Notes under the pieces: generated by a model
Seen by the model: only the letters and a program-made list of their open reading frames with translations
Database searches by the model: none
What the model was told of the DNA's origin: nothing
Shown: positions 1 through 60,828 of the stretch, piece after piece
Layout: every line of letters begins with the position of its first letter
Numbering within the stretch: the stretch's first letter is position 1
NCBI GenBank assembly: GCA_964036045.1
Contig: OZ038381.1
Span: 103,235,367-103,299,366, forward strand
DNA: 64,000 nt
DNA from: Eutreptiella sp. 'Long Island Sound 2002'
Taxonomy: Eukaryota; Euglenozoa; Euglenophyceae; Eutreptiales; Eutreptiaceae
Direction of reading: 5' to 3'
Made by a program: the position numbers and the translations under genes

Positions 1-200
1 TTGTGTTGCCATGGGGTGGACAAAGGGGGGGGGGTACTTTTCACGTCCGTGTTGGGCCTGTGTCAACACAACACAGGAGGGGGTGGGGGGGTACTTTCCA
101 CCTCCGTGTTGGCCGGCCGTGTTAACACGCCGAATCCCTTTGAGGTGCAAGACTGTGTGAGGCAACCCTGCAAGGAGTTACATGGGTGTGCACCCATGCA
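1..200. repeat. End of an unidentified element that interrupts TE-A copy 1
   Basis: This stretch has no counterpart in TE-A copy 2; homology between the two copies begins at about 200 (matching about 8692). It carries short repeats such as CGTGTTGGCC and GTGTTAACAC and two G-tracts. I read it as the edge of another insertion or a rearrangement that removed the 3' end of the TE-A transposase gene. The rest lies outside the window, so its class cannot be determined. Confidence 0.4.
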
Positions 201-1152
201 ACAGCGCGCCTCTTCGTGAAGCCATGGTGTTGTACAAGAGCCCTCCAACAACCATCAAGGCCACTGTGAGTAACACGTGTCACCCCATGCAATGCATAGT
301 CAGGAGGCCTGTACTTGGGCAAAACTCTACGTAGCACCTGCCCGTACCAGGTCCAGTGTGACACAATGGGTGAAAGTCCCTTCCCAAAGTCGCGATCGCA
401 ACGTGCCCGGCATTTTCCACATACCCAACACACCGGGTCTACACTGGTGCAGTTCCATCTTTTGATGCCTGCCATTGCCTGTTGTGCCACGACATCTGCA
501 ACCAGGAAGATATTGGGTTTTTCCATGTAACCCCCTTGTGCTTCATACTTTGTGTTTAGGGCCTCTTGCACCTGCTCATCCATTTTGCTAACCCTTCTGA
601 GTGATCGTAGCACAGCACGTTTTTCAGAGCCGTGTAAAATGCACCAGCTACCAAGCGGGTTACCCAATCCAAGCACTCCAAGCATAAAATGCTCGAAGTG
701 CCGCTTGTGTAGTTGTGTACCATCCACGCAAAGGCGTACCTAGAGGTCCGGGTACAAATTTCCTTTACGGGCGGCCATCATGAGTCCCAGTTTCTCCCTC
801 AAATTTGTACCGTCCCCCAGCAATTTGTGGTCCCCGTCCATTGCATTGTAGTCAACTACTGGAGGTGCACTAAGTTGGTCCTTCACTCTTTTGACTTCGT
901 CCAGGGGGCATTTAATCCGGGACGTGGGGATGGAGTGCTGTAGGGCCCGCCAGCTTTTGCCCTCCGTGCGGCGATCCCACAGGAGCACCTCTGCATGCCA
1001 CATCTGGTTTTGAGGCATGGGCCCATCCGTCGTTTTCAAAATGAGGGTGCTCACGTTTTCGTCGGTTTGCACTTGCCAGGCCAGACCAAGAATTTCCGTG
1101 ACTGCCGTTTGCAGTTCGGCCATCCGTTCCCATCTCTTAGTCCTTCGCAGCT
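201..1152 (-). pseudogene. TE-A copy 1 transposase (last exon, broken)
   Basis: This minus-strand exon begins after a likely acceptor (AACAG before CTGCGAAGG, about 1152). Its product is collinear with the exon at 8300-9617. Blocks shared with the TE-B and TE-C transposases are [PAY]D[LV][WF]V; an [AG]SW block followed by [DH]G and then L[QR]; and a hydrophobic strand ending LVAD with QAMAG downstream, then a W/C-rich segment. A TAG at 738-740 replaces a Trp codon that is intact in copy 2. The C-terminal part with the presumed third acidic residue is lost at about 200. I infer a DDE-type transposase from the spaced acidic blocks and the element context; the superfamily is not recognised. Confidence 0.6.
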
Positions 1153-1559
1153 GTTCTTACTCCTTGATGGGGGCATGCTCCTTGAGTGGGGGGGGGGGGA
1201 CCCTAGGGAAAGACAACAAGGGGGGGGTGCATGGACACAACAAGGTTCGCACGTATAGGCACCAGTGCAACACTCAACACGTACGTGTGCGCGTACGAGT
1301 CGGCACAGCAACGCGTATGCGTTTCATTTTTAATGCGTACGTTCCACACCAGCGAATCGTACCTTTCATGAACCTAACGCGTACGCGCCAGAACAGCGAA
1401 TCGTACTTGTCATGAACCCAGCGCGTACGCGCCAGCACAGCAACGCGTAGGATGCAACACCGTACCGCCTACGCACTCCGCACTCAAACGCGTACGCGCC
1501 CCTTCCACAACGGGTGCGTGTTGACGGATACTGCACCCATGGCACATGCTACCCGGCAC
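1153..1559. repeat. Intron with TE-A motif array (GCGTACG)
   Basis: The region is dominated by GCGTACGCG/ACGCGTACGTG-type near-palindromes (about 1263-1500) between the transposase exon and the HxH exon. There is no credible coding. A poly-G run at about 1182-1200 adds to the low complexity. The array resembles those at 3471-3730, 5908-6108, 7110-7530 and 11143-11345. Confidence 0.7.
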
Positions 1560-2140
1560 ACAGCCTGAACCCGGGACTCTGCAGCAGCAGCAGGTCCTCC
1601 CACGACACCTTGCCGAGGCCGACCTGGGTAAAAAACACCAGTGCATAGCGTTCACCACGCCACGGGGCTGGCAGGTGCAAAGCACCACTGCAAAAAAACG
1701 ACCCCTTTTCCGGGCATCCAATGCCACCCCATCCTCATCCACCCTGTCATGCCCCTCTGGCCCTGCAACACATGCCATTGTGTAGGGGCGGGTTCCCCTT
1801 GTTGGGAACAAGAGCCCCGCCTCCTCCACGCAAAACTCCCAACCTAAAAAATCACCAGCAGTCACAATGGCACTCAAGGGCAGGTGGTCGTGGTGCTTAT
1901 GCCCTGGCATTGTGGCTGAAGGGGAAACAGCATGGTTCACTTGGATGGCAGTCCAAGTGAACCACGATGGCAACCTTGCGCGCCCGTAGGCATTGATGGC
2001 TGCGCACACCTTTGGGAAGTTGCGTGTTGCAGCAGCCACACGGACATTGCCACGCTGCACCACAATCGTACTCCCCACCTGTCCTTGGACTGCCATGCCC
2101 CATCCAACCCCTCCAACAAAAAACATATGTGAGGGGAGGG
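1560..2140 (-). CDS. TE-A HxH jelly-roll-like domain exon
   Basis: Read on the minus strand, this exon contains a WFTW.AIQV block, then PGHKH followed by LSAIV, then a glycine-containing FCVE segment and GRFFAVV near the end. The same order appears in TE-B (39240-39885) and TE-C (31258-31830). There the corresponding blocks are WF.W..IQV, [LG]HxH, LSA[IL], GG.[FV].VE, and a terminal H..P.PW.GER[WY]. The arrangement resembles a double-stranded beta-helix oxygenase (HxD, distal H, then Arg), but the first motif is HxH, and in this copy the distal His is not apparent. The biochemical function is unknown. The neighbours are the coiled-coil exon on one side and the transposase exon on the other. 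Confidence 0.5.
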
Positions 2141-2161
2141 GAGAGCAGCAGCCCCTGGGAG

Positions 2162-3433
2162 TCAACTGCCATTACCACCATCACGGCCTTTGCCACCGCC
2201 ACTACTGCTGCCACCGGGCTCCTCCGCCGCCTTGCCTAACTGTAGACTCTGCACAGTGTACTTGTCCCTCAATGATGTAAGGGCTTTCGGAGTCTTCTCC
2301 CCTTGTGTCGACTCCTTGCCTCTTGCATCGATGAGTGAATCCCTCAGTTCCTCAATGGATGTGGTGGCCTGGACAAGGCCATCCTTGATTTCCATTGCTG
2401 CCAGTTGCAAAACATTCTTCTGGTCTTCCACATCTTTCCCCCCCTCCCTAGGGCCAGGGCTAGCTGCGCCTTTCTTGCTTGCCCTCACAGAGGCATCCTT
2501 TAGCTTCTCTCTTAAGTCCCTAATCTCATTGTCCTTTTCTCTTCGCTCATCCTCCCACTTTGCACGCTCTTCCCTCAACATGTCCTCTGCAGCTTTCTGT
2601 GCCTGGTCACTCTGCTTGCGCACCTTCTCAAGTTCCTCAATTCGCGCCCTTAGCTGCTGCTGTGTGTCTTTGAGGTGCTCACGCTGTGCTGCTGAGGGGG
2701 AGGCAGTGGGCCCAGTGGGCATTGTAACCGAGGGCCCTCCCTTGGCACCAAGCTTTGGTTTCTTGGCACGGGACATACGAGAACCGTGGCGCGTTTGGTC
2801 AATGTCATAGCCCTCCTGTGCCCCCGTACCCGTCTCTCTCTTCCCCCCAACCTTCCCCGCTAGGAGAAGCTTCCAACTCTCCATTGCCCCATCCACCTCC
2901 GCAACAACAGCAGCGTCGGTGATTGGGAGGTAACCCGCCACCCGTGACCATTGAACACGCTTGGCCTGCTTGAGCTGCCCTCCGTGCACACACCATGTCT
3001 GCATGTAACTGTGGCTGTCCCTTTTAATTTGGTGCAAAGTCCCCCCAATAAAAACTGCTTCTGGATCCCTCCCAACGGCATGCCCCTTCATCCACATGGG
3101 AAACTGGACCATCACGGGCTCAGCCCATGTGACCGCACCATGGTCTTCCTTTGTTCGTGCCTGCAATGTAACCTGATCATAAAAACTATACTTAGCAACA
3201 TCCCCAATATGGACATTGTCTACAACCTCCTCCTTACTCACGTGCACCATTTGCCCTGGAATTGTCCCTATCGACTTAGGGGCCGGGGCCACCAGTGGAG
3301 CGCCTCCCGGGGGGCTTTGAAGAAGGCCCTTCGGCTTCAACACCTTCCGGCGTTCATTCGGAGGCGTCGGGCGCACTTGTGCTTCAGAGGGCCAAGGGCG
3401 CCGCTCCTTGTACTTGAAGGGGGTCACGTGCAA
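2162..3433 (-). CDS. TE-A beta-domain plus coiled-coil protein (exon)
   Basis: The exon starts after a good acceptor (CTCTTGCAG, 3434-3440 on the minus strand) and reads about 424 codons to a stop at 2162. The first 60 residues are basic and Pro-rich. Residues about 60-200 form a strand-rich domain also found in TE-B (27318-28067) and TE-C (30113-30720). A basic linker follows, then a long charged coiled coil (roughly residues 240-330, repeated E/K/R/Q heptads with QLRARIEELEKV-type patterns), and a Gly/Ser-rich tail. It is the longest intact open segment of TE-A. Equivalent coiled coils are present in TE-B (38907-39215) and TE-C (30990-31230). I suggest an assembly or DNA-bridging partner of the transposase, but this is inference. 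Confidence 0.6.
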   Translation of the reverse strand: MHVTPFKYKERRPWPSEAQVRPTPPNERRKVLKPKGLLQSPPGGAPLVAPAPKSIGTIPGQMVHVSKEEVVDNVHIGDVAKYSFYDQVTLQARTKEDHGAVTWAEPVMVQFPMWMKGHAVGRDPEAVFIGGTLHQIKRDSHSYMQTWCVHGGQLKQAKRVQWSRVAGYLPITDAAVVAEVDGAMESWKLLLAGKVGGKRETGTGAQEGYDIDQTRHGSRMSRAKKPKLGAKGGPSVTMPTGPTASPSAAQREHLKDTQQQLRARIEELEKVRKQSDQAQKAAEDMLREERAKWEDERREKDNEIRDLREKLKDASVRASKKGAASPGPREGGKDVEDQKNVLQLAAMEIKDGLVQATTSIEELRDSLIDARGKESTQGEKTPKALTSLRDKYTVQSLQLGKAAEEPGGSSSGGGKGRDGGNGS

Positions 3434-3750
3434 CTGCAAGAGAAGAAGGATAATGGTCACACCGTGTGCGTACCTCAGTGCAATGGCACCCGTGGTCAGC
3501 ACACGCAACGGGTACGCGTTGGTACATTAGCGCGTACGATCTACTCGGGCAAGACGTACGTGTTGGTAGGGCAACACGTATGATCCGCTAGGGCAACCCC
3601 CACATGTTGCTACCCCAACACGTACGATCTGCCTCGCCGACGCGTACGTGTCGGCAAGTCAACGCGTACGCACGAAAAATGTAATGCGTACGAGGCACGT
3701 ACACCGTACGTACGCGGTGCGTATGTGCCACATGCGCACGAAGTACATAC
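3434..3750 (-). repeat. TE-A intron made of GCGTACG-type repeats
   Basis: The minus-strand donor GGGGAG/GTATGT lies at 3751/3750 and the acceptor CTTGCAG at 3434-3440. The interior is nearly all CGTACG-containing repeats (3471-3730). It is one of the clearest cases in which the element's private motif fills an intron. Confidence 0.65.
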
Positions 3751-5800
3751 CTCCCCATAATTCTCACCATAGTCCATGCACCCACATGAGTACTCCACTC
3801 CGCCGCCTGCCGTCGGCCGCTGCACCACCCAATTTCGCTCCACCGCCCCGCAACACTGGCCGGCGCGACATGCGGGGCATGCCCCATGGCTGCCCACTCC
3901 ATCCATGCCGGCCCATCCTCATCCCGCCTCAACGTCCAACCACACGTGGCAAACGTGAACACCAACGAACCTTTCTCAACCGTAAACTGTGTCCCACCGG
4001 CAAAACTCGCCTTGGGGAGGGACCAACGGTGACACCGAGCCAAAGATAATTGTGGCTCCTCGGGGCTTGGGGGGCAGTTGAAAAAGAAAGTTGCACATTG
4101 CACACCATGGCCGAAAATCACAACATCACCACAATAAGGGACAGCTTGCCGTCGCCGAACAAGCAACGGAGCCGAAAAAGGGTAAAGGATTCCCAAGGAA
4201 TAGGGGCACCTTCGGCATCTTTCAGAAATTGAACCATAGGAGGAAGAGCATACAATTGGCGAGCCAAGTGCACCTTTGACATGGTGGCAGCATGCTCCAA
4301 AGGGACATACGGGATGAACAAAGTGTAGCGCCCTTTTTCTCCATCAACCGCCCCGCGATGAAAGGTGCAGCCTTTTAAAAGAAGGATGTCACCCAATTCC
4401 ATGGAACACACATCCCAACGATTGGACTCATGTTGCCCAACCTGATGTGAACCCACACCGACTTGCAAAGCACACTCGGGACGAACATTGTCCAAGGGAA
4501 TGAACACTTGGATGCAATCCTTCATCCAAGGCGGACCCATAATGTTGTGATCCGAATGGACCAACTGATACCCATACCATGGGTCGCATGGGGTACAATG
4601 CAGCAATTTCACATCCACTGGTTTCAACGCACTCCACTCAACGCCAGCAATGCACGTCACCACACCCAACACTTGCGCGCGCAAACCCTCGGGCAACCAT
4701 TTCGACGACCGTTTTGTTTGCTTCCAAACCACATTGGCACTTGCATAAGTGTCATCTTCCAACGTAATAACCTTTCAATCCCGGGGGGCAATGTCAATTT
4801 TTAAAATCGCTTTGGCAATATCGGCATCAAACGAATTACGTTCAATGAAGTAACCGGCATGTGCAAACCCATGCACATTGTCAACGGGTGGGGCGGGAGG
4901 CAACTGATTTGAGGGCAACGGCATATCACAAAGAAATGGTGTGGGTGCACCGTAACCCATTGCAAAAACTTTAGCTGCGGTTGCATACACATATGGCGTC
5001 GAGCAATCGGGGTGGTATTTTACGGAAAGGGATGGGGGCACGCATTGAGTGGGGCCATGCTCATTCCATTCATCCGATGCGCAACCCATGTACCGCACAA
5101 AGGAGTCCGTGCGACAAATGCTCTTCACGGTACTCTCAACGGGATCGGGGAAACGGGTACCACCGTTGAGCACGGCATATTTTTGCGTAAGGGTCTTTGC
5201 AACTCTCTTACGCAAGCACCCATTCATAGTTGTGAAACGTGCGTCACGCTCACCAACACTCAAACTAATGGAAACCATGAGCAAAGGCTCACCCACAAAC
5301 TCAAACAAAGCCGCAGGGAGAATGGTGTGGGGCATTGCATCGGCATTGGGCCATGCAAGAACGGAACGACTATCAGTAACAGCAATAACACCTAGTGCTT
5401 GCGCATTCACATCCAAAAGCAAAACATCGTGCCATGAACTTGGCAATCCTGGAAGACCCTTAAGGTCTTCGTCACCCAACGTTAAACGGACAACAACAGC
5501 ACCATGAACACCATGTGCAAGATCTCCTGCCTCACGAGTGTCCGTGAACCAACGGACCGCCGTTTCATCCGCGTCCAACTCCCCGACCTCCAAGGCCCGC
5601 TTCACAATCTCGGCGGGCCTATTACCTTCGGCCAGCACCTCAAAATCCTCCTCCTCCTCCTCCTCCTCCTCCTCTTCCACCACCACCCCTCGACCCTCAC
5701 TTGTCCTCGGCGCCATCTTTGCTATGGCCCCAGCTTCGGCGGCAGGCACGGCGCCTTTTCTTGCCACCTTCTTCTTTCCGGGTTTTTTCTTTCCACCCAT
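3751..5800 (-). pseudogene. TE-A copy 1 Fe(II)/2-oxoglutarate oxygenase-like protein (broken)
   Basis: The likely start is the second Met (5800-5798), before a Lys-rich N-terminus (MGGKKKPGKKK), followed by a Glu tract encoded by a CTC repeat (about 5650). About 360 residues of unrecognised sequence precede the oxygenase-like core. The core shows VHSDHN (HxD iron ligands), a GSHQVGQH turn, and FHRGAV with a downstream GRYTLFI (distal His and 2-oxoglutarate Arg). This order matches phytanoyl-CoA-hydroxylase-like dioxygenases. A TGA at 4775-4777 replaces the TCA (Ser) codon of copy 2, and a frameshift near 4150-4190 separates the last part, which runs to a donor at 3751. Such an enzyme could act on nucleic acid or protein; the substrate is unknown. 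Confidence 0.65.
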
Positions 5801-5879: not shown

Positions 5880-6137
5880 ACAATTCAACCACTAGTACTG
5901 CAGACAGCGTACGGGCACCACAGGCAGCGCGTACGCGTTGCAATCTGAGTGCGTACGCGCTAAAATACCAACGCGTACGGGCCAAAATACCAGCACGTAC
6001 GCACTCAGATCACAACGCGTACACACTCAGATCGCAACGCGTACACGCTGGTTTGCTAGTTCGTGCGCGTTACAAAATCAGTGCGTACGATAATGCGTAC
6101 GCATACATGTGAACAACATGGGGCAGATCTTAGCAGT
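5880..6137 (-). promoter_or_regulatory. TE-A 5' subterminal motif array and terminal repeat
   Basis: Dense GCGTACGCG/AACGCGTACG repeats (5908-6108) lie directly upstream of the oxygenase start and run to the terminal repeat at 6124-6137. Position and content match 11143-11375 in copy 2. It probably contains the promoter and transposase-binding sites, though no core promoter element is recognisable. Confidence 0.55.
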
Positions 6138-7099: not shown

Positions 7100-7535
7100 T
7101 CGCATGGACAGGTACGTGTTGAAATCTTAACTCGTACGCGTTGGTTTTCTCTTTGTTGGAAATTTATCATTCTTCATGGAAAGTTCATGTGTGGGGTATC
7201 ACCTTACCCAACCCCGCCCCTTTTTGCACTTCCCCTGTACCACTAGGTGCCACTGCAGACATTGCCGACCGTAGGTCGCCTTCTCCCTCCGCATAGTGTC
7301 CCGAAAACCATACTGAATTTCCCAAAACCTTGCTTTTGGATTGTCCTCTGACACGTACGTGTTGGCAGTGCAACGCGTACGCGTTGGCTGCGCGGCGCGT
7401 ACGTGTTGGTGTTTCGACGCATACGCGTTAGTAACTTAACACGTACGCGTCAGCTCACCAACGCGTACGTGTTAGATTACCAACGCGTACGTGTTTATCT
7501 GCTGGTGCGTACACAATTCGTACGCACCGCTTACG
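7100..7535. repeat. TE-A left subterminal GCGTACG array
   Basis: Repeated ACGCGTACGCGT, ACGTGTTGG and CGTACGCGTTGG units (about 7110-7160 and 7350-7530), with a less repetitive segment between. This is the same motif as the other TE-A arrays. Confidence 0.65.
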
Positions 7536-8299: not shown

Positions 8300-9617
8300 G
8301 AAAACTCGCCTCACGAGTCTACCTCTCCGTCCCCGTACCCCCCCCTTTTACTTTCCTTGCCCCCCCCTTGAAGCTCCTAAATCGAATCTCCGTTTTCAGA
8401 GTCTTGTGCCTTTCTTCTGCCTTGAAGGCAGCAAAGGCACCAAGGGCATGCCACTGCTTAGCAAACCCAACCATGTGGTCAACCCAAAGGTGCACCCACA
8501 GGGTTTGCACCAATTGGCACCTTTTGTGATGCACTGCCATTTGCGGTAGCACGTTTTCTAGGGTGTCAATTTCTTGGGCTCCTGAGAGACCCTCCTTTTT
8601 GGCAATGGTTGCACTTTTGTGCAAACAGTCCCACCACCAATCAAAATTTTGCGCCCATGTGTGTCCCTCTTCCACGACATGTTGCCAGAGACAGCGCGCC
8701 TCTTCGTGAGGCCATGGTGTTGTACAACAGCCCTCCAACAACCATCAAGGCCACTGTGAGTAACACGTGTCACTCCATGCAATGCATAGTCAGGAGGCCT
8801 GTACTTGGGCAAAATGCTACGTAGCACCTGCCCGTACCGGGTCCAGTGTGACACAATGGGTGAAAGTCCCTTCCCAAAGTCGCGATCGCGACGTGCCCTG
8901 CATTTCCCACGTACCCAATACACTGGGTCTACAGTGGTGCAGTTCCATCTTTTGATGCCTGCCATTGCCTGTTGTGCCACGACATCTGCAACCAGGAAGA
9001 TATTGGGTTTTTCCATGTAACCCCCTTGTACTTCATACTTTGTGTTTAGGGCCTCTTGCACCTGCTCATCCATTTTGCTAACCCTTCTGAGTGATCGTAG
9101 CACAGCACGTTTTTCAGAGCCGTGTAAAATGCACCAGCTACCAAGCGGGTTACCCAATCCAAGCACTCCAAGCATAAAATGCTCGAAGTGCCGCTTGTGT
9201 AGTTGTGTACCATCCACACAAAGGCGTACCCAGAGGTCCGGGTACAAATTTCCTTTACCGGCGGCCATCATGAGTCCCAGTTTCTCCCTCAAATTTGTAC
9301 CGGCCACCAGCAATATGTGGTCCCCGTCCATTGTAGTCAACTATTGGAGGTGCACTAAGTTGGTCCTTCACTCTTTTGACTTCATCCACGGGGGCATTTA
9401 ATCTGGGACGCGGGGATGGAGTACTGTAGGGCCCCCCAGCTTTTGCCCTCTTTGCGACAATCCCACAGGAGGGCCTCTGCATGCCACATTTGGTTTTGGG
9501 GCATGGGCCCATCCGTCGTTTTCAAAATGAGGGTGCTCATGTTTTCGCCAGCTTGTACTTGCCAGTTCGGACCAAGAATTTCCGTGACTGCCGTTTGCAG
9601 TTCGGCCATCCTTTCCC
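8300..9617 (-). pseudogene. TE-A copy 2 transposase (last exon)
   Basis: This is the best copy of the TE-A transposase C-terminal half. Minus-strand blocks in order: an N-terminal segment beginning near MAELQTAVTEIL (shifted out of frame by a 5-bp deletion near 9330 relative to copy 1), PDLWVRLCVDG, LGSWCILHG, IFLVADVVAQQAMAG followed by KRWNC, and a final helix with AEERHKTLKTEIRFRSFKGG. The last block aligns with SSIPTE...K...FKGW in TE-B and SSIPTE...K...FQGW in TE-C, so its Glu is the candidate third catalytic acid. A frameshift also separates the final exon part (about 8741-8319). The family is DDE-like and not assigned. Confidence 0.6.
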
Positions 9618-9618
9618 G

Positions 9619-11038
9619 GAAGGATGTCACCCAATTTCATGGAACACACATCCCAACGATTGGACTCATGTTGCCCAACCTGATGTGAACCCACACCGAC
9701 TTGCAAAGCACACTCGGGACGAACATTGTCCAAGGGAATGAACACTTGGATGCAATCCTTCATCCAAGGCGGACCCATAATGTTGTGATCCGAATGGACC
9801 AACTGATACCCATCCCATGGGTCGCATGGGGTGCAAAGCAGCAATTTCACATCCACTGCTTTCAACGCACTCCACTCAACACCAGCAATGCGCGTCACCA
9901 CACCCAACACTTGCGTGCGCAAATCCTCGGGCAACCATTTCGACAACCGTTTTGTTTGCTTCCAAACCACGTTGGCACTTGCATAAGCGTCATCTTGCAA
10001 CGTAATAACCTTTGAATCCCGGGGGGCAACATCAATTTTTAAAATCGCTTGGGCAATATCGGCATCAAACGAGTTACGTTCAATGAAGTAACCGGCATGT
10101 GCAAACCCATGCACAATTTCAACGGCTGGCGCGGGAAGCAACTGATTTGAGGGCAACGGCGTATCACAAAGAAATGGTGTGGGTGCACCGTAACCCATTG
10201 CAAAAACTTCAGCTGCGGTTGCATACACATATGGCGTCGAGCAATCGGGGTGGTATTTTACAAAAAGGGGTGGGGGCACGCATTGAATGGGGCCATGCTC
10301 ATTCCATTCATCCGATGCGCAACCCATGTACCGCACAAAGGAGTCCGTGCGACAAATGCTCTTCACGGTACTCTCAACGGGATCGGGGAAACAGGTACCA
10401 CCGTTGAGCACGGCATATTTTTGCGTAAGGGTCTTTGCAACTCTCTTACGCAAGCACCCATTCATAGTTGTGAAACGTGCGTCACGCTCACCAACACTCA
10501 AACTAATGGAAACCATGAGCAAAGGCTCACCCACAAACTCAAACAAAGCCGCAGGGAGAATGGTGTGGGGCATTGCATCGGCATTGGGCCATGCAAGAAC
10601 GGAACGACTATCAGTAACAGCAATAACACCTAGTGCTTGCGCATTCACATACAAAAGCAAAACATCGTGCCATGAACTTGGCAATCCTGGAAGACCCTTA
10701 AGGTCTTCGTCACCCAACGTTAAACGAACAACAACAGCACCATGAACACCATGTGCAAGATCTCCTGCCTCACGAGTGTCCGTGAACCAACGGTCCACCG
10801 TTCCGTCCGCGTCCAACTCCCCGACCTCCAAGGCCCGCTTCACAATCTCGGCGGGCCTATTACCTTCGGCCACCACCTCAAAATCCTCCTCGTCCTCCTC
10901 CTCCTCCTCCTCTTCCACCACCATCTCTCGACCCTCACTTGTCCTCGGTGCCCTCTTTGCTATGGCCCCAGCTTCGGCGGCAGGCACGGCGCCTTTCCTT
11001 GCCACCTTCTTCTTTCCGTGTTTTTTCTTTCCACCCAT
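9619..11038 (-). pseudogene. TE-A copy 2 oxygenase-like protein, truncated and fused
   Basis: It starts at MGGKKKHGKKK (11038) and reads without interruption through the Glu tract, the central domain and the HxD motif (VHSDHN) to LGDIL. There the deletion replaces the distal His/Arg motifs with out-of-frame transposase sequence. The open frame of about 560 codons is therefore a chimera and not a natural protein. Copy 2 keeps the Ser codon where copy 1 has TGA, showing that copy 1's stop is secondary. Confidence 0.65.
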
Positions 11039-11142
11039 ATGGTACAGAAAAGCACGAAGAAAAAGAAGACACACATGAAGCAAAGAAAAAGATTTTCTTT
11101 GTCACGTCAAAAGGAACACAATTCAACCACCAGTACTGCAGA

Positions 11143-11345
11143 CAGCGTACGGGCACCACAGGCAGCGCGTACACGTTGCAATCTGAGTGCGTACGCGCTA
11201 AAATACCAACACGTACGCGCCAAAATACCATCGCGTACGCACTCAAATCACAACGCGTACGCACTCAGATCGCAACGCGTACACGCTGGTTCGCTGGTTC
11301 GTGCGCGTTACAAAATCAGTGCGTACGATAACGCGTACGCATACA
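11143..11345 (-). promoter_or_regulatory. TE-A copy 2 5' subterminal motif array
   Basis: A GCGTACGCG-type array upstream of the oxygenase start, collinear with 5908-6108 and differing by scattered substitutions. It ends just before the terminal repeat at 11362-11375. Confidence 0.55.
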
Positions 11346-11377
11346 TGTGAACAAAATGGGGCAGATCTTAGCAGCTA

Positions 11378-12335
11378 CATTGGTGCCCTCCAACACCACG
11401 ATATGTCCGAGAAACGGCTGAAAAAGGCGCCAAAAAGCCCCAAAATGTGCGCAATGTGCACCAACACCGCGAAACCAAGCACGGGCCGTATCTTGGGCTA
11501 CGTGGCATAAAATCCGATTCCAAGGGCACCTAGTCCACCCGCAACCCCCCACCTTTTGTGGTTCCAAGTCCCAGAATCGCCCAACGAGACGCCTAGTACC
11601 CCGTACCTGTGGTCACTTGGTGCAGCCAGAGGGCAACCTAGCACAGTGGGGGCCAACAGTGGGTCCACCAGGGTCCCCGGGGCGAAAAAAATCATTTTTT
11701 CCAAAGTTGTTCCGAGACCACTTGGCATGCTCAAACAAGTGTTTTCAGGCCGTTTTTGAGCCCGTAGTGGCATGTTTTGGCCCACAGAAAATCCCAAAAG
11801 GCCTTGAAAATGGGCCGTTTTGGGACCAAAAAGGGGTCAAAAAATGGGTCAAAAACGCATTCTTCCAAAAGTGACCCTGGACCATTCGGGGTGCTCAAAT
11901 ATATCCTCTTATCTACACCCCTCTCCCCAGCTCGAGGTGGCTCCAACATACGGCTCTAAGGTACGTGCGAAGGGCACAACGTGGTGCATACATGTGGTGT
12001 AAGGGGCTAAACACGGTTAAATTGGACTTAAAATGGGCTAAAAAAACTTTTTTGGGCATCCCAACTTGTCCAGGATCCTTTTTGTAAAAATCCGTTTTTG
12101 ACCCATTTCTGACCCATTTTTGGTGCCAAGACAGCCCATTTTCAAGGCATTTTGGGATTTTCCATGGGCCAAAAGGCGTCACCACGGGCTCAAAATGGGC
12201 TAAAAACACTTGCATGAGCATCCCCAATGGTCCAGGATCACTTTTGGGAAAATGTGTTTTTGACCCATTTTTGACCCATTTTTGGTCTAGGGGGAGCTAG
12301 GGGTCGCAGGCGGTCGCAGGCGGTCGCAGGCGCTT
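11378..12335. repeat. TE-G left arm with internal degenerate tandem units
   Basis: 11390-11830 is inverted-homologous to 12940-13390 (landmarks CCACGATATGTCCGAGAAA, AAAAAGGCGCCAAAAAGCCC, CCCCGGGGCGAAAAAAATCA). Beyond it, units of about 150 bp with GTCCAGGATC, GACCCATTTTTGACCCATTT and TTTTGGGATTTTCC recur twice (12045-12170, 12180-12290). The arm ends in GGTCGCAGGC repeats (12302-12335). Confidence 0.6.
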
Positions 12336-44693: not shown

Positions 44694-44738
<45 letters not shown>

Positions 44739-47455: not shown

Positions 47456-47615
47456 AAAAAAAGCACCCCTACGATGAGGGTTGTGTGGGGAAAGAAAGGG
47501 GACGGGGGTTTCTGAGGGTGCTGAATCCATTTCGTTAGGTGCTTTACCCCAAAATTGAGGCTAGGTGGGTGTTCCAGAAACTTTGCTCTTACTAGGGGTT
47601 CCGCACAACCCCCTA

Positions 47616-48364: not shown

Positions 48365-48522
48365 GTTGGAAATCACCATCCCTGTCATGGTCAACCCCAT
48401 TGGGGCTCGAGGGGCACACACTAGAGCTTCCCCGATGTGCCTGGATCGGCTGAGGCAGAAGTGGCGGGAGGAGTTAGGGACAGAGGGGTTGCTCAATGAT
48501 GATGAAGGCCGAAGTGAAGCAC
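48365..48522 (+). CDS. TE-F internal exon
   Basis: An open exon between TATGTAG and AC/GTATGT: LEITIPVMVNPIGARGAH, then CLDRLRQKWREELGTEG. It is helical and unassigned. It is flanked on both sides by GGTAAC arrays (48560-48790 downstream). Confidence 0.45.
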
Positions 48523-48811
48523 GTATGTTGTTTTCCTTGGGGGTGGTTCCCAATTTTCTTGCTGGTAACGTAAATCGCCGGTAACAGATCAGCGGTTACA
48601 TGGGTGGTAACACTGTGTGTCAGGTTTTTGCTCCCGGGTAACACTTTTCCCGGGTATCAGGTCAGCGGTTACATGGGCGGTAGCACTACATTTCGGGTTT
48701 TTTGCTTGTGGGTAACAGTTTCGTCTGGTAACAAGTATGCAGTTTCAATGGTGGTAACAGTTCGCACTGCATTTTATGTCCCTGGTAACATGCTTTGCAC
48801 TCTTTGTCACA
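48523..48811. repeat. TE-F intron with GGTAAC/GTTACC array
   Basis: Repeated GGTAACA.GTCAGCGGTTACA.GG.GGTAACA units at 48560-48790, ending TTTGTCACAG (about 48814). Confidence 0.65.
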
Positions 48812-50310
48812 GTGAACCTCCTGCTGGTGGAACTCAGCTGCGACGGGTGCTCTGCTCTGAAGGACGTGGAGGATGATGATGCCGAAGCCCCGAAGAGGCA
48901 CCCGGAGAGGCACGGGGAGGGCTGCACAGCAGCTCAGCTCAAGGGAGGCCACGAGAAAGCCCACAAAGCTAAAAGTGCATACTCAGGTATGGTGTGGCAA
49001 TCCTGGGGTGTTGGACAAACTGACTTTCTTACTTTCAAACGTACCATTAACTCTCTGTCTGCAGGTTTGTCCCACCTAGAGAAGCTCCTTGTAGGCCTTC
49101 AGAGTGGTCCCACTATCCCCGGGTCGCTGCAGCTAAGGACCCAGGACCTGGCGGAAGTCAGCCAGGAAGACCTGGATGCAAGGATCGTTCAAACCTAGCG
49201 TCACATCCGGGTAATGCTGCATCTGAGGTCCACCCACAAGAGCCCACCCCCACTCGAACTGCCTGGCCAGTGGCGTCCATGTCTCGTTGGGACCCTCCGG
49301 GAACAGCAGGAGAGGCCTCGGAGGTACAAGCGGAAGTACTACAAGGTCAGGAATATGCACCCGGGTCATGAGTTCGGGAGTGCAACCAGCAGCAGTGACA
49401 GCCAGGAGAGTGAGGGGGCCAAGATGCGGAGGAAGCAGCGGAACAAGCAGAAGAAGGCGCGGAGGCTGGCCCGTTAGGAGGAGGCGCGGCAGCGGCTGGA
49501 GGGAGTGCGGAACGCGCTGCTGGCGAGGGTGCACGCAATGGAAGTGGAGGCCAGACCACCAAGCCTTGGTATGTTTTTTGTGCTCTGTTACTGTTGGGTA
49601 ACACAATTTTCTGGGTAACAACCCAGGGGTTACAGAGGTGGTAACACTTTACAAAGCAAGGGTAACACAATTTTTGGGTAACACCCCTGGGGTTACAGAG
49701 GTGGTAACACTTTACAAAGCCCGGGTACCACAATTTCGGGGTAACAGCCCAGGGGTTACCCGGGTGGTGACACTTTGCAAAACCACTGTGTGTGTCTCTG
49801 TGTTTTCAGGTGGTTCCTTGGCAAAGGCCTACTCACCCCTGACGGCGAGGGAGTTGAGCAGCGGGGAGCAGGCGCCCCAGGAGGCAACCTCAGGCCAAGG
49901 GCGCCCCAGAAGGCCTCCCAGAAGTCCCCAAACCCGGCAGTGCCGAAGCACAGGCTGCCGAGGTTCCAGAAGCCCTTGGCCCCGACACCCCTGCCCTCAG
50001 GCATCGGATCCGGGCAGTCGCGGGAGCGGTGATGCCCCCTTGTGCCAGGCCGCTCCCACCAACAGTCCCTCAGGCCACGGCGGCCACTCAATTGGCCCCT
50101 CCGACCCAAGGCTGCAGCAGAACAGGCTGCCATTGCCCAAGAGGCAACCCAGCCCACCCAATGGGCCCCATCCACTCAAGCCAGTGAGATGCCGTTGTGG
50201 TCGCAGGAGGCAGAGGATGCTGGCGAACACGGTGGGGAACGTGCGGAGACACCGGCTGAGGAACCGCCACCAGAACCGGCAGCTGGGGCCGACGATGACA
50301 CGCCGATGTG
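48812..50310 (+). CDS. TE-F further exons (approximate)
   Basis: Several short exons are likely. About 48812-48985 is charged, coiled-coil-like, with EDDDAEAPKRHPERHGEG. From 49066 it reads SHLEKLLVGLQSGPTIPGSL. 49214-49560 is very basic, with TSGSTTRSGICT-type sequence in one frame and a KMRRKQRNKQKKARRLAR tail in another. From 49810 it is Pro-rich. GGTAAC arrays at 49585-49775 separate the last two. Frames are uncertain. The region links the TE-F N-terminal part to the piggyBac core. Confidence 0.35.
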
Positions 50311-50359
50311 ATGATGTGCAAGGGTGTGTTTCTGTATTTGTACCCTTTGTTTTGTGAAT

Positions 50360-50790
50360 GGGGAACTGTGGTGACACGTTACCGGGGTAACACCCCAGGG
50401 GTTACATGCGCGGTAACACACAGGTATTCACCTCCGGGGGTATGGCAGCACGTTACCTGGGTACCAACCCAACGGGCACATGTGTGGTAACATCGTTCCG
50501 CAATGATCCTCTGTTGTTCTCAGGCCCAAAAGTGAGTGTTGGAGGCTCTGCGTCGTGGACGTGATGGCGTGGGAAGCATGGACTTCACGGACCGATGCAG
50601 CAGCGACGTCGGATGGGTTCTTTTTATTTTCTTAAGGCCTTTTGTGGCCTCTATGTTTGTACAATGTTTCCATGGTCAGTGGTGAATGTTACCACCCTTG
50701 TAACCGTTACATGGTTACCAATGGTTCTCAATGGTTGCCAGGTGCTACCAGTTACCAGTGGTATTACCTCGTCGTCCTCATTCTTTCCTT
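50360..50790. repeat. TE-F GGTAAC/GTTACC arrays before the transposase core
   Basis: Units at 50377-50490 and 50685-50770 (GTTACCGGGGTAACA, GGTTACATGCGCGGTAAC, TGTAACCGTTACATGGTTACC). There is no convincing coding between 50540 and 50880. Confidence 0.55.
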
Positions 50791-50887
50791 CAAGCTTTGC
50801 CTCAGGGTTGAGGGTTAATTTGTGAACGATGTGCACGTGTGCAAGGGGGGGGGTGTTGACCTGTCCACCCATTTCCCCTTTTTACAG

Positions 50888-51451
50888 CCACCATGCCCAT
50901 CCGACCCAGCCGGCGTCCATTGCGGAGAGCAATGGTGTTCGTAAGGAGGGGAATACCCCCCAAGCATGTGCGAGGGGCCCTATGAGCAACTACCCTTGGG
51001 GGACATCCTAAAAAGAAGTATGCCACCATTATAGAGGCCATGGTTGACATGTTCCACCCAATCCTACGCTGCCTCAGTGAGGCTTTGGCGAAAAGTGGAG
51101 CCAGCAAATTGATACCCAAGCTCACCAACTACATCCTATTCAGGATCATGCTGGGCATGTGGCGACCCAAACGAGTCGATGATGTATGGCATCCCACAGA
51201 TTTTTGTGCTCACAAAGGATTGGCCTCTCTATTAACCAGGGAGGAGTATTATAAAATACACCGCCTGTCCAATTGTGGTACTGCAGACCTACTTGAGGCT
51301 GTTCATGCCCATTGGTCCAGCCTATGGGTATGGGGGTGGGCTGCCGCAGGGAATGAATCCATTGTCCCCCACAAGGGGAAAAGGGCTGGACCCATGCGGC
51401 AGTTCATCCCCAGAAAACCCTATAGCAGAGCCATTAAATTATATGTGTTGG
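50888..51451 (+). CDS. piggyBac-like transposase, core exon 1
   Basis: After the acceptor CTTTTTACAG (50887) the frame reads a basic leader, then VDMFHPILRCLSEALAKSG and a helical region. Next comes GNESIVPHKGKRAGPM followed by QFIPRKPYSRAIKLYVLG. This is the piggyBac DE..(V/L)..FKG....Q(Y/F)(I/M)P.KP block, but the first catalytic Asp position is Asn (GNES for .DE.). The exon ends in phase 1 at a GTGACT donor. Confidence 0.65.
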
Positions 51452-51496
51452 GTGACTAAGTGCACCCTTTTATAACTGATATTTTTTTGTATGCAG
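51452..51496 (+). other. 45-nt intron of the piggyBac-like gene
   Basis: GTGACT...TATGCAG. Removing it joins G to GC and keeps the transposase frame open across the junction. It is the only intron seen in TE-F that lacks the GGTAAC motif, perhaps because it is too short. Confidence 0.65.
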
Positions 51497-52275
51497 GCAA
51501 AAGGGTCAGGGTCTTCCGGGATCACCCCCAGGTGGCTGGACCTCGGACTGCCCGCGAGATGGAACACCGATGGGCGGACCTACTCCCTACTCGCACTGCA
51601 ATTGTGTGCGACTCATACTTTGGAAGCCACCTAGTGGCAAACCAAATGGCACAGCGTTAGCACCCCTTCTTGTTCCTATGCAAAAGGGATCAGGAAGGGG
51701 TTTCCCTGGCAAGGGATAGTATGCGACCCTCCATTGCAGCAGAAACGTGTGTCAAAGGAGGCAAGTATAGCCTCCATGTGTACAAGAACCCAAAAGTGGG
51801 TAGCAAACCGGCGCGTGTGGTTCCATTTCTGTCAAAGTGTGTGTTGGACAATGAGTGGGTGCGCCACAGAGGTGGTTATGAGCTTCCACCTGTTGTGGCT
51901 ACATGCAGGCAGCTAGCCAACGGTGTTGACAGTGCCAATCAAATGGCACTAGAACACCGTGAGACAGGCAGGTTCAAGAGTTGGACCCGTGCCTTGAAGG
52001 CCTTCTTGTTTAGGTACGCGATTGTAAATACCTTTACAGTCTGCCGACTCCAGGGTTTGATACCCAAAAAGAAATCTCTTTGGGACTTCCAATGGGATAT
52101 TTTGGAAAATATTGTCTCCCCTGGGCACGCTGTGCACACGCCGGTGCTTGTAGATACCCGAGGGACTTGCAAAGTATGCAAGGGGCACACTTGGTTCAAG
52201 TGTGCTCATTGCGATGTGCATTTGCAATCCTACAGTGGTTGTTTCCACAAGTGGCATTCAGAACTAAAACCTTGA
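51497..52275 (+). pseudogene. piggyBac-like transposase, core exon 2 and Cys-rich tail
   Basis: It continues KRVRVFRDHPQVAG, then TAIVCDSYFGSHLVANQM (second catalytic Asp present). A TAG follows at 51658-51660, after which the same frame runs to 52275. It has a PARVVPFLSK strand, NGVDSANQMALEHRETGRFK (third Asp in GVD present; the fourth position is Asn in ANQ, where DQ is usual), and a helical region. The C-terminal Cys-rich domain is CKVCKGHTW with KCAHC and CFHKWH, typical of piggyBac tails. Two Asn substitutions plus the stop suggest an inactive or strongly diverged enzyme. Confidence 0.65.
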
Positions 52276-52389
52276 ACGCAGAAGAAACAACACTCCTACG
52301 GCGCATTGATACTTCTTGCAGGGCAGGGAGGGAAGGAATTGTGCGTGCATGACAGTGTGCGCAGCCACAATGGGGCAACTAAAACAAAG

Positions 52390-53168
52390 TGTGATGAAGG
52401 GGTTACATGAAAGGTAGCACATGGGGTAACTAGTGACAAAGTGCTATTGGAAAGGGGCATGGCTACCCGGGCAACACCCCAAGGGTTACAGCGGTGGTAA
52501 CAAAAACAAACAACAACAAGAGCGCTTGGGTAACACATACATGTTACTGGTAACATAGGAAGTCCCTCGGGTAACACATGGGTAACATGCTCGGTAACAT
52601 GTGTTGCCCAGGTAACAAGCATTTTTCCCCATCCGAAAAATAAAAAAGCTCAAATATCTTCACCTGTTTTCTTGGGCAAAAATGGTTTACCCAGACCATA
52701 TGGATCCCTGAGTACTAACCCTAGATAAGGCAATGTTTTTTATATATGTATATCTATATAGGCTGAAATATGGGTGAAAACGGAGGTGCTTTGCCACTTT
52801 TACGTGTCCCGCACCACACCACTCCCATGTACATGCAACTATTGTCCTTTGCTGCCTTTCTGCGCACGTAAAAGGGTGTATTTGCGTGGTTACTATAAGT
52901 TTAGCTCGGATGCTACGGTCGATATACGGGGCATATGCCCCGGGATATAGCGCAGATATCCGGGTCATAGGCCCAATTTTGGTATAGAATTGAAAAAAAT
53001 GGATAAGTAGCCCAGATCCGCCACCACGAAAAACCCCCATAGGTGTTGAGGAAAACAAAGGCACCCGTAGCCTCTGAACCCCCCCCCCCCGTATCCTTGT
53101 AGATAGAGTAAATTTCCCCAACATGAAAAAAATGACATGTTACCCCAAATTTCACCATGTCACTGCCC
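52390..53168. repeat. TE-F 3' subterminal region and right terminal repeat
   Basis: GGTAACA/GTTACC units at 52400-52620, then AT-rich sequence with a palindromic ATACGGGGCATATGCCCCG (52926-52944) and C/T-rich spacer, ending in the right terminal repeat (53119-53168). Confidence 0.6.
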
Positions 53169-53183
53169 TAGATAAAGGAATAT

Positions 53184-53560
53184 CTAGGGCCAGGCACGGA
53201 AACCACGAGGGAGGGAGACGACAAAGACGACCCGACCAGGTCCACCAGCACCTCGGTGGATAGTTGTCCCATTGAGGATTGTGACGCTTTGCGTGGGTTG
53301 CACCACCAGGTCCCACCGGTAGGAATCATGGTAGCCCTTTTGGGTTCCCGCGGCCACTTGCAAGCTCTTGGAGGGTGGGATCTCATCGAGCCAAATGAAA
53401 ACGACACGGCCGTCCACGGCCTGCTTCCGCCACAAGGCGAAGTTCTGGTGTGGCCACCGAAACCCCTTTCAGGGGGCTGCGGGCAACCGGTCAAACATTT
53501 TGGCCTCAGTTGGTCTATGTCCTTCAGCTAAGGCAGGGCATCCTCCAATGCGCCCGTGAG
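53184..53560 (-). pseudogene. Fragment of another oxygenase-like gene
   Basis: The minus-strand frame ends at TAG 53184-53186 and reads NFALWRKQAVDGRVVFIWLD, KSLQVAAGTQKGYHDS and NGTTIHRGAGGPGRVVFVVS. These align block by block with the TE-A oxygenase (ALQVGVGSHQVGQHES; KGCTFHRGAV...GRYTLFI), with distal His and Arg conserved. The HxD position reads HQN. The start and other exons are not found. TE-F inserted just beyond its stop. Confidence 0.5.
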
Positions 53561-58260: not shown

Positions 58261-58559
58261 TTTTGTTCATTTCCACCGTTTTCCATGTGACAAGCGTATC
58301 GTGCCGTTGCCTCTCCCTTGGCTTTCGTCCTCCGTGTGCCGCGCATGTTACGCGTGTTCAGTCCGTGTCTTCGCTCTCAACTCTTCCTTAAGTTACGTGT
58401 TCTAAGCTTTTGATTCTAGGTGTGCCTCTGGAAACCAAATAACAGGTGTTGCATATCCGTGCAAGGCGTGTTCCGCGTGTCGCGCGTAACGAACACCATG
58501 CTTCGGGAGGCGGGAGCCCACGTTTTGTGCGAGCTACACGTCCTCCTGTACCTCAGCCC

Positions 58560-60444
58560 ATTCTTTATGCCCGCATCCCTTTTCCCAGACAGCCACAAGC
58601 AGTGGCTTGCCAAGGGTGGGCCACCTGGGTAGTTGGGGGAACACGGCCAAGCTGAAGCACAACGAGTTCATCGTGTTCCAGATCAAACAGTATGTGCTTC
58701 TTCAATGGGGTGGAGCGGGGGTGTTGTGCCTTTTGATGCCTCCCACGTCGATGGCGTTCGTTTCGCCTTTTTGTTTCAGCTTCTGGGGCCGTGCCACACA
58801 TTTCTTCACAGGCGGCCGGCACGCAGCTTGGGTGAACCGCAAGAAGGTCGACAGCGAGGGACGACGAGAGGATGAGATGTTCCTCACCAACGTGACCTAT
58901 CCATGCATGACACGTGCCATGTTGTTTTGTATGTTCGCACCGTTCCGAGTGCCCATTATCATTTGCTGCCTGCAGATTTAGACGAAGGAAGGAAAGCCGC
59001 GCGATTCCCGCGAAAGTCCAAGTTTGCCGCGCCAAGCCGGATGGATGGTTCGAGTACACAAAGGTTATATTGCGCGTGATGCGTGTTGTATCTGTAAGTG
59101 ATTTTTCCCCGTGTCATACGGGCGTTGCGCGTGTTGCGCGTTCTGCGCGTTCGGGTAATGTGCCTCTCGTTTTGCCTCTGGGGGCGCCGCCATTGTGCTA
59201 CACGTGCTGCGCGTTTTGCAGATCCAACAGAACCGGTTGTGGACCTAGTCGGAGGGCGAAGAAGAAGAGAGTGAGGAGGAAGAGGAGGAGGAGGCATCAG
59301 CAAACGACGGAGACGAGGAGGAGGAAGAAGAGACCGAGGAGGAAGACAAGGACAAGCTAGCCCATGGCAAAGAGCGGGCCCGAGGCGCACCGAAGAAGGA
59401 GCATTCCGAGGACGACCCAAAGGACCCCGTTGTTCTGGAGAAACACTCCTCTTCTTCTGCGAAGGCAGCACGGTCCACCGTGCTGGAAGTCAAGCAGGAG
59501 CCACAGACAATGACAGAGCAAAAGAAGCGGAAGTCAGAGGAGCGGAGCCCGCCCAACGTGCCACCAAAGAAGTCCGAGGCGGAGATGCCCAAAAAAAAGA
59601 AGGACAAGGACAAGGCGCCCCGTAGTAACGTGTCCTTTCCGATTTCCGGGAAGGGCCCGCAAAAGAGCATCAGCGCCGCACAGACAAGAGCACAGAGGTA
59701 CCAGCATGAAGGCGGGTACGACCGTGATGTGGTCACAATGCAGAGAATCTTGGAGACGGACGTCAATGCCAGTTTGGGCAGATTGGTGATGCACTACAAA
59801 GATGGCTTGTTGGAGTAATTCAAGTCCAGGCGAGAGATCGGTTTGGTATTTCTGCTTCACACCAGTTTCCCGGCTCTAAGCGTGCAAAGCGTGCTGAGAT
59901 GCGGGACCAAGAACGCCCAGTCGGCTGCAACAGCCCGTGAGTACTTCGAAAAGCGGTATTCATCGAGCAGCCCGCGGCAAGTGGCCCAGGAGATATGCAG
60001 GGCCTTTTGGTTGGTACGGGTTGCGCCACCGCACCGCAATGTGCCGTGGACCTCAGCCCGCCATTGGAGGGTATCAATCTGGCCGAGGGGAAGATGGATG
60101 GCCTCCGAAGTGGTCGTGGAGGTGGCGGGGCCGATCGGGTTAGCGCAATGGGCATCGAAGACATCGTTGACATGGAAACGGATGTTTTGAATGTGTTGTG
60201 CAGGGAGCTCTGTTGTGTTTCTGCATAGTCGTCCGCGCGTCATGCGCGTTCCGCGCGCTTGCTTCTAGCCTGCCTCTGGAGGAAAATTCCTGTGTTCCGC
60301 GTTCTGCAGGAGAAGTTCGTCCGGATAGTCCGGATGGCCGGCCTAATGGCGTACGAATTGGAAGAGGAAGGGAACCTCGAACTGCCGGCGTCCGGAGCAT
60401 GGTCGTTGGTGCGCACCCGAGAGCTGGCGGCGAAGAAACCGCGG
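58560..60444 (+). pseudogene. Gene J2: paralogue of J1
   Basis: About 58580-58640 (DSHKQWLAKGGPPG) matches J1's NNSKQWMKADGS. Exon 58810-58913 (GRHAAWVNRKKVDSEGRR) is followed by a 62-nt intron (58914-58975). Exon 58976-59063 has VCRAKPDGWFEYTK, like VCDCRSKPDHWFKYER. Exon 59222-59817 starts RLWT, then TAG where J1 has Trp, then acidic and Lys-rich runs, ending LVMHYKDGLLE. 59870-60180 has VLRCGTKNAQSAATAREYFE, like J1's GVKNAQSPWAAPEHL. Exon 60310-60444 follows. J1 and J2 therefore arose by duplication. Their introns carry the same GCGTT.CGCG/GCTTCTGGA repeats. Confidence 0.45.
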
Positions 60445-60828
60445 GTATTTGTGTGCTTTGTGGTGACGGTGGTGTGCGTGACATTGCCCTCGCCACGCCT
60501 CTGGAGGTCCATGGTTGCCTGATGCGCGTTTTGCGCGTCTTGCGCGTATGATTCCACGTACGCTTCTGGAGGACAACTTTCCGTGTTACGCGTTGCGAAG
60601 ACTGCCGCTTGGGATTGGGAGCCCCCTCACATGAGCGGGTACCGATGTACTCTGTATTGTAGTTCAGGCAGAGGATCTCGGTAAGCAGGGTGAGGAGCAG
60701 TCGCAGCCATTGCTGTCATCAAGAATGCATATCGCTGCATTGTTCATGTGTAGTCTTTTTTTCATTTTTGCATTAGCAGACAGGCCCAATCGGAGGCACC
60801 CCGCGACTACGGGTGCCTTTCTCATGCC
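60445..60828. other. Spacer between J2 and the gag-like region
   Basis: It holds GCGCGTTTTGCGCGTCTTGC-type repeats to about 60600, then unassigned sequence. No supported coding. Confidence 0.4.

Follow-up and report, generated by a model that had tools for sequence, protein, structure and literature searches.

Private motif arrays in matching non-coding slots of DNA transposon families from a Eutreptiella genome

Introduction

In Arabidopsis, the protein VANC21 binds the motif YAGTATTAY in the introns, the intergenic DNA and the terminal DNA of VANDAL21 transposons, while VANDAL6 carries a different motif in its non-coding DNA (PMC5735166). Both the binding and the hypomethylation were shown experimentally for VANDAL21 and VANC21; the step from binding to the loss of silencing is left open there, as is the question of whether other kingdoms share the host machinery (PMC5735166). 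Fungal DNA transposons that encode TET/JBP proteins carry a dioxygenase gene that is proposed to counter silencing by methylation, and Kojima speculates that the transposon TETs of Agaricomycotina act without target specificity (PMC12730594). CACTA/En-Spm elements have family-specific subterminal repeats that diverge between families and are bound by an element protein, as TNPA (PMC2613891). Introns with repeats are found in Amoebophrya, where introners have spread genome-wide (PMC7789003).

Here, we analysed a window of 64,000 nucleotides (the whole stretch of DNA under study; contig OZ038381.1, positions 103,235,367 to 103,299,366) from Eutreptiella sp. 'Long Island Sound 2002'. Its transposons resemble VANDAL21/VANC21 and VANDAL6/VANC6 in that short family-specific arrays, rare in other families and different between related families, lie in intergenic and terminal DNA and, as inferred from sequence, in introns. 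A preliminary description of the window had regarded motif-bearing introns that differ by element as previously unknown, which the VANDAL motifs contradict (PMC5735166). The VANC21 motif is a 9-mer in one orientation, whereas the motifs of elements A, B, C and D and of family J are CpG palindromes; gene 1 here is oxygenase-like. No Pfam match to a MULE transposase or to the VANC protein (DUF1985/DUF287) was found in the gene-1 and gene-2 ORFs tested. The likeness to the fungal transposons lies in the dioxygenase-type gene, with a TET-like pattern in A, B and C. However, the available text on those elements describes no arrays of targeting motifs ('subterminal' has 0 matches; PMC12730594), and here the TET-like domain, which is not recognisable in J, comes after another oxygenase-like domain. 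The available account of CACTA/En-Spm describes no intron or intergenic arrays (PMC2613891), and CACTA terminal inverted repeats were found neither at the B ends (TGGGATGC..) nor at the C ends (TGGTGAGC..). The introners are scattered over their genome (PMC7789003), whereas here the array-bearing intron has a single position in transposon genes. What is new relative to these systems is that the slots and the spacing are the same while the letters are swapped.

Results

The motif of A is GCGTACG and that of F is GGTAAC. Motif matches are grouped in discrete clusters in the window, and the table of motifs by mapped territory is nearly diagonal, with matches in the own territory and elsewhere of 43 vs 3 for A, 31 vs 0 for B, 22 vs 1 for C, 18 vs 2 for E and 50 vs 11 for F. 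Against 100 dinucleotide shuffles of its own territory, each of A, B, C, D, E and F had more matches than any shuffle (observed vs shuffle mean: A 43 vs 0.65, B 26 vs 0.01, C 22 vs 0.02, D 8 vs 0, E 18 vs 0.06, F 50 vs 4.4, with a shuffle maximum of 11 in F). The diagonal table and these counts bear out the view that each element has its own private motif. The motifs had also been called palindromic; those of A, B, C and D are, as is that of J, and they contain CpG, but those of E and F are not palindromes. An exact match to one listed motif, TAGTTATCGCGCGATAACTA, is missing from the window, where its half-site GTTATCGCG recurs. Matches are few in exon-matching DNA compared with elsewhere: 3 vs 610 for A, 0 vs 34 for B, 0 vs 47 for J and 10 vs 93 for C, where all 10 are alignments that enter or touch arrays. 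In the window, the array units are tandem repeats, and array blocks are alike between slots of the same element (B 86%, E 80%, C 85%). The evidence for E and F comes from the window copies. Element G is a further window element, with its own array GGTCGCAGGC. A left-end piece related to F lies at 16499-17572.

Table 1 Features of the transposons in the window. Introns are putative.
Feature	Coordinates	Strand	Remarks
A gene 2 exons, putative transposase	122..1156	-	
A array past stop of TET-like ORF	1291..1497	-	
A second oxygenase pattern, which we take to be TET/JBP-like	1552..2171	-	residue pattern
A coiled-coil-like exon	2165..3433	-	
A intron 1 with array	3434..3750	-	GTATGT..TTGCAG after CGC (CxC) motif; 6 core matches
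A gene 1 exon 1, oxygenase-like protein	3751..5800	-	
A array (GCGTACG), upstream of gene 1	5907..6102	-	motif clusters; precedes OX match in 20/20 A copies
A further array, terminal side	7375..7525	-	
A second copy, internally deleted	8691..11379	-	array 11145-11334; 94.7 and 96.5% identity
Element G, long inverted repeats and GGTCGCAGGC arrays	11384..13383	not assigned	
Element B, interrupted by C (with E) and D	24632..47642	+	imperfect inverted ends TGGGATGC..; extent as we read it
B upstream array	24850..24989	+	
B intron 1 with array	27122..27318	+	GTATGA..TTCCTAG after CPC motif; 5 core matches
Element C, interrupted by E	28066..38764	+	inverted repeats TGGTGAGCATAACC..; TA target duplication as we read it
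C upstream array	28274..28345	+	
C intron 1 array	29885..30040	+	acceptor about 30115; fuller C copy L031
C array after ..PWGH-stop-stop	31871..31925	+	
Element E	32725..37023	-	44-nt inverted repeats (95%)
E candidate intron with array	34201..34355	-	array-blind gene model
E candidate intron with array	34656..34803	-	array-blind gene model
E candidate intron with array	35920..36040	-	GT..AG ends; absent from array-blind model
C gene 2 3' part	37252..38201	+	homology to B; 541-aa open frame in copy L029
C 3' array	38475..38527	+	
B TET/JBP-like region	39246..39881	+	
B array between gene 1 and gene 2, probably no intron	39889..40048	+	after ..NPSS-stop, before gene 2 ATG
Element D region	41691..45899	not assigned	arrays 43068-43205, 44014-44182, 45844-45866
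B gene 2 3' part, putative transposase	46340..47223	+	homologous to C 37252-38201
B 3' array	47297..47370	+	
Element F, piggyBac-type, GGTAAC arrays	47643..53190	+	
F candidate intron with array	48523..48812	+	array-blind model; same sites in splice-chain trial
F transposase region	50986..52275	+	DDE_Tnp_1_7 match in 50986-51459

Elements A, B and C belong to one superfamily, unclassified, with homologous exons and a common gene order. Four slots hold their arrays: upstream of gene 1, in an intron of gene 1 that follows a CxC motif, in the gap between the genes and at the 3' end. The slots match among the three elements, and the letters of the arrays are wholly different. Intron 1 lies after the CxC motif in five families, A, B, C, J and H, while the arrays differ or have diverged, which makes it likely that the intron predates its array.

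Other genomic copies, hand-picked for a good exon match, keep the arrays in the same slots. For A, 212 candidates gave 40 listed matches, of which 20 were fetched at 9-10 kb and all 20 counted, with loci L001-L008 left out of the counts. The C sample comprises 6 copies of 150 listed matches, the B sample 1 of 150, and the H and J sample 4 of 150. The first look returned 4074 candidates with the C query and 5094 with the B query, 150 being scored in each, and both families are apparently abundant. An array lies before and after the OX match in all 20 A copies, in 19 of which the second array can be aligned with the reference intron, and there is an array between the TET-like and TN0 exons in 10 of the 11 copies in which both were matched. 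Arrays occupy all four slots in C copies L029 and L033; in L031 the 3' array is absent although the locus extends beyond the expected site. The B copy L036, which is free of the insertions of C (with E) and D, has arrays in the same slots.

Family J was fetched as a test, after three related families had already been seen. It carries a new palindrome, AGTTGGCGCGCGCCAACT, in all four slots, and none of the motifs of A, B, C and D was found in it. The possibility that J is a B element with a replaced motif and the end of B kept was rejected. The adjoining 119-bp B fragment, at 100% identity, ends abruptly, and J was therefore probably inserted in a B copy.

Array spacing is 21-22 bp in 31 of 38 cases in C and 29 of 33 in J, 22 bp in 126 of 196 in A, and 11 bp in 16 of 19 in D. 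The E arrays gave two pairs in all, and no periodicity was seen in F. Such regular spacing could come from tandem duplication itself.

The intervals described earlier as array-filled introns fared differently. The candidate introns A 3434-3750 and B 27122-27318 (previously 27131-27317) have GT..AG ends and an intact frame across them in other copies (A L028, B L036), but the window copies show frame changes nearby; exon 1 of A gene 1 also has an in-frame stop near 4775, with a frame change further on. A gene model blind to the arrays, from which the motifs were withheld but whose splice-site weights had been set after such introns had been read, returned E 34201-34355 and 34656-34803 exactly, whereas 35920-36040, also with GT..AG ends, was not predicted. 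The arrays of the intron slot lay inside introns drawn by the model in A L028, in B L036, in 2 of the 3 E candidates and in 1 of the 5 F candidates, but not in C L029 or J L035. Among the splice sites tried, no open chain was found through the five candidate introns of F. The model also placed introns where there is no array, two in E, one in F and several in A and in B. Frame breaks point to additional array-free introns in gene 1 of A, B and C. The claim that the motif fills the introns of its element needs the correction that some putative introns have no array.

In A, B and C, the same model also ran introns through the between-gene slot, and its introns took in most of the A upstream array. 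If correct, the former would speak for the earlier listing of B 39886-40096 as an intron. The model cannot end one gene and begin another, and its introns through the between-gene slot were therefore discounted. A stop codon precedes the between-gene array in all three elements (..NPSS-stop in B, ..LCAG-stop in A, ..PWGH-stop-stop in C). The interval B 39886-40096, once listed as an intron, is better read as intergenic, because the upstream frame is closed by a stop ahead of the array and gene 2 has its in-frame ATG downstream of the array.

Gene 1 looks like an oxygenase, as judged from residue patterns and one sub-threshold Pfam match. An HxD..HRG pattern is found in A, B, C and J, and HQN in H, with the R poorly aligned; B gene 1 matched PF13640 (E=0.04) and PhyH (E=0.27), both below the cut-off. 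The TET/JBP-like residue pattern of A, B and C, which reads HxxD in B and C, gave no Pfam match. The AlphaFold models were too poor to use, with a mean pLDDT of 37.9 for the TET-like protein and 26.0 for gene 1. A search of viral contigs with query P0002 gave 134 stretches that matched a pattern, of which 0 were confirmed. No TET-like domain was recognisable in J and no oxygenase was recognised in E and F, so the presence of arrays is not bound to that of oxygenases. B and C gene 2 matched no Pfam or NCBIfam family above the cut-off, KDZ included, a search that could miss remote relatives, and B gene 2 matched nothing above chance among PDB sequences. Element F encodes a piggyBac transposase, with a PF13843 (DDE_Tnp_1_7) match at E=1.2e-5 and 25.2 bits against a cut-off of 22.4.

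Discussion

Among the roles put forward earlier, self-recognition fits best, given the matching slots, the similar spacing, the family-specific letters and the scarcity of matches in exons. We propose, with modest confidence, that the arrays serve as binding sites for a DNA-binding protein which the element itself encodes, that this protein recognises its own family and that its main job is probably anti-silencing. Such a protein would bind the array and find other members of its family in trans. Homodimeric binding would be most likely in the A/B/C/J/H superfamily, where the palindromic sites are mostly about two helical turns apart. The protein would maintain or bring about an unsilenced state of family copies, like VANC in the VANDAL elements of Arabidopsis, perhaps through the oxygenase-like gene-1 protein. 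While the private arrays, their slots, their spacing and their swapped letters can be read directly, we infer the protein binding, the identity of the protein, the anti-silencing effect and the action by oxidation, as well as the splicing. As to the methylation tagging suggested earlier, C-to-T type changes are rarer per copy at CpGs in the motifs than at spacer CpGs (ratio 0.42), a difference that is clear only by cells and not significant when counted per column (p=0.32).

A more far-reaching version is put forward tentatively. One genome would hold many DNA transposon families of more than one superfamily, each using a private word as an address at set non-coding places; a family-specific oxygenase of the A/B/C superfamily would read the CpG palindromes and strip methylation from its own copies only, and the word would be swapped while the slots and the helical spacing stay.

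It is possible, though somewhat doubtful, that the arrays are instead sites for the transposase or for a TNPA-like accessory protein, needed for synapsis and excision, with internal copies that autoregulate transcription and with no anti-silencing. The arrays do lie near both ends, E and F have them with no recognised oxygenase, and in CACTA elements the subterminal repeats, which differ from family to family, are the target of a DNA-binding protein (PMC2613891). However, the intron and intergenic arrays of the A copies have about as many matches as the outer ones, and excision alone needs none of these. That the arrays are passive tandem repeats, expanded under weak selection and spread within the element by gene conversion, is unlikely. 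The tandem units and the blocks that can be aligned between the slots of one element speak for such repeats, but the same four slots and the 21-22 bp spacing recur in C, J and mostly A with unrelated letters, J has a new motif in all four slots, and all 20 A copies have arrays on both sides of the OX match.

An action in RNA or as host-factor sites, in splicing, termination or promoter function and not in self-recognition, appears very improbable: arrays are found in putative introns and beside gene starts and ends, but also in terminal DNA on either side, and a common host factor would need no family-specific word. Least credible is that the introns arose from subterminal DNA, as had been suggested, or from introner-like insertions. 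Intron arrays do share the motif and some longer blocks with other arrays, but for A, B, C, J and H the idea is disfavoured by an intron 1 that follows CxC in all five families while its array differs or has diverged.

In the self-recognition reading, the private array word looks like an address by which a family could recognise its own copies. The VANDAL elements of Arabidopsis provide a documented case of sequence-specific anti-silencing, and no targeting is named in the available text on the TET-bearing transposons of fungi (PMC12730594). Here, oxygenase-like genes and private arrays occur together, so that targeting, the swapping of words and the co-evolution of protein and site become directly testable.

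Results

DNA transposons form a nest in the window, which belongs to a 2.28-Gb assembly. Each of six elements, A to F, had been described as having a private motif that is scarce in its neighbours, and the counts bear this out. Motif-by-element counts over the window territories are near-diagonal, dense in the own element and rare elsewhere, and the own-element count exceeded all 100 dinucleotide shuffles for every motif. The reverse-transcriptase-like regions, used as a negative control, have one match of the C motif, two of the F motif and none of the other five, and no repeated 8-mer is outstanding in them. No motif arrays were seen around the open reading frames that we take to be GIY-YIG-like and reverse-transcriptase-like, including the presumed second copy of the latter. 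Four query pieces of the window recur, as 96-100% matches, about 252 kb downstream on the same contig, which would be a recent segmental duplication or an assembly duplication.

Features of the nest by position in the window
Position	Feature	Remark
11384-13383	Element G	Inverted repeats, ~84%
12281-12341; 12874-12934	GGTCGCAGGC arrays of G	One more private array in the window
13800-16100; 18013-24600	Reverse-transcriptase-like regions	Negative control
13851-15575	Second reverse-transcriptase-like copy	Presumed from its pattern
20449-23734	GIY-YIG-like and reverse-transcriptase-like frames	Presumed from their patterns
28066-28099; 38731-38764	Inverted repeat of C	TATGGTGAGC at one end, ATGCCAGG near the other; a host transcript might thus lose an inserted C by splicing
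52719-53190	CCCTAGATAAAGGAATATCTAGGG palindrome and CCCTAGATAAGG end, ~470 bp apart	F may end in a small piggyBac-like element
53187-53468	Family H oxygenase exon, truncated	Adjoins right end of F
60996-61604	Three tandem units ~201 bp apart, inside an open frame	73-75% identity to first unit

Elements A, B and C have homologous exons in the same order and form one superfamily. Gene 1 comprises an N-terminal region, an oxygenase-like domain, a coiled-coil-like region and a TET/JBP-like domain, and is followed by gene 2, a putative transposase for which family searches returned no assignment. In the oxygenase-like stretch, HxD and HRG align across A, B, C and the related family J, while HQN occupies the first site in the related family H; the downstream R aligns poorly across families, and Pfam gave no more than a sub-threshold match, for B. 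The TET/JBP label is our assumption from a residue pattern (F-T-W-T..HxD..GGEF..H..GER), which no search confirmed; the first site reads H-x-x-D in B and C. In a J copy (L035), gene 2 is present, as are the oxygenase-like and the coiled-coil-like region of gene 1, but no TET-like domain is recognisable between these regions and gene 2.

The arrays occupy four slots: upstream of gene 1, in its intron 1, between the genes and at the 3' end. All 20 fetched A copies have an array before and another after the oxygenase match, and 10 of the 11 with both exons matched have one between the TET-like and gene-2 (TN0) exons, the exception being L012, whose TET-like match is truncated. All four slots are filled in the B copy L036 and the C copies L029 and L033. 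Three are filled in L031 (C), where no 3' array was found; in the C copies without gene-1 matches, L030 and L032 keep the intergenic and 3' arrays and L034 the 3' array. L035, fetched specifically as a test of this rule, contains 47 matches of CGCGCCAA in four clusters, in the same slots, and none of the A, B, C or D motifs. The J intron array recurs in L038 and L039, and in a decayed H copy (L037) both intron 1 and the upstream slot retain a related core, TTGGCGCGCGCCAA. The C query gave 4074 first-look candidates in the genome, and among the matches listed many have identical score, identity and 541-aa open frame, which together suggest recent activity.

Motif matches in exon-matching DNA versus elsewhere number 3 versus 610 for A, 0 versus 34 for B, 0 versus 47 for J and 10 versus 93 for C. 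The ten of C comprise eight from an L029 exon match that overruns into the array of the intron, and two at the margin of the TET-like match of L033.

The preliminary description placed arrays also in GT-AG introns, which probably holds for intron 1 and probably fails for the array between the genes. Intron 1 follows a C-x-C motif in A, B, C, J and H, and this common position indicates that it is probably old, its contents having been replaced. Read in phase 0, exon 2 begins with a short hydrophobic stretch in all five families; open frames on either side support this phase in L028 (A), L036, L038 and L039. Frame changes occur near intron 1 in the window copies of A and B, the acceptor reads CAC in L031, and the normal exon-1 end is missing in L029. 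A stop codon precedes the array between the genes in A, B and C, and in B, C and J gene 2 offers an in-frame ATG beyond it, although a gene model made blind to the motifs drew introns through it.

Palindromes, claimed for every element, predominate among the motifs of A, B, C and D, and also J, but are no more frequent than chance in those of E and F. Spacing was counted between neighbours 8-80 bp apart in the window arrays and in 6 of 20 A, 3 of 6 C and three J loci. The distance between palindrome centres is 22 bp for 126 of 196 pairs in A and 11 bp for 16 of 19 in D; in C and J it is 21 or 22 bp, for 31 of 38 and 29 of 33 pairs respectively. For half-sites of B it is 12 bp in 20 of 42 cases; periods other than 10.5 fit equally well (11 for A, 12-14 for C), and the p-values ignore relatedness. 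E offers two pairs only, and F has no period.

Within one element, array blocks align between slots beyond the motif itself, with identities of 86% (B, intron and intergenic), 80% (E, two introns) and 85% (C, intron and intergenic, inverted). Copying of blocks from one slot to another would be expected to give such a pattern, which is similar to the way tandem repeats turn over in VANC targets. In A copies, C-to-T type changes affect 48 of 2411 motif CpG cells, 73 of 1542 in spacers and 193 of 6041 in exons, a motif/spacer ratio of 0.42 (bootstrap 0.25-0.61). Counted by column, motif and spacer CpGs do not differ significantly (41 of 151 motif versus 31 of 93 spacer columns, p=0.32). These counts would be compatible both with hypomethylation and with its absence.

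Discussion

Private words, fixed slots and regular spacing are best explained as putative sites to which a protein encoded by the same element binds, for which VANC of Arabidopsis is the nearest tested case. Among titles and abstract openings of open-licence papers, the VANDAL/VANC system, TET transposons of fungi and the subterminal repeats of CACTA elements came nearest, and none described private arrays in fixed slots across several transposon families of one genome. The oxygenase-like domain of gene 1 suggests a possible way of removing marks, but since J lacks the TET-like domain and no oxygenase was recognised in E or F, the reader may be a protein other than the oxygenase-like one, or transposition and anti-silencing may be combined in one system.
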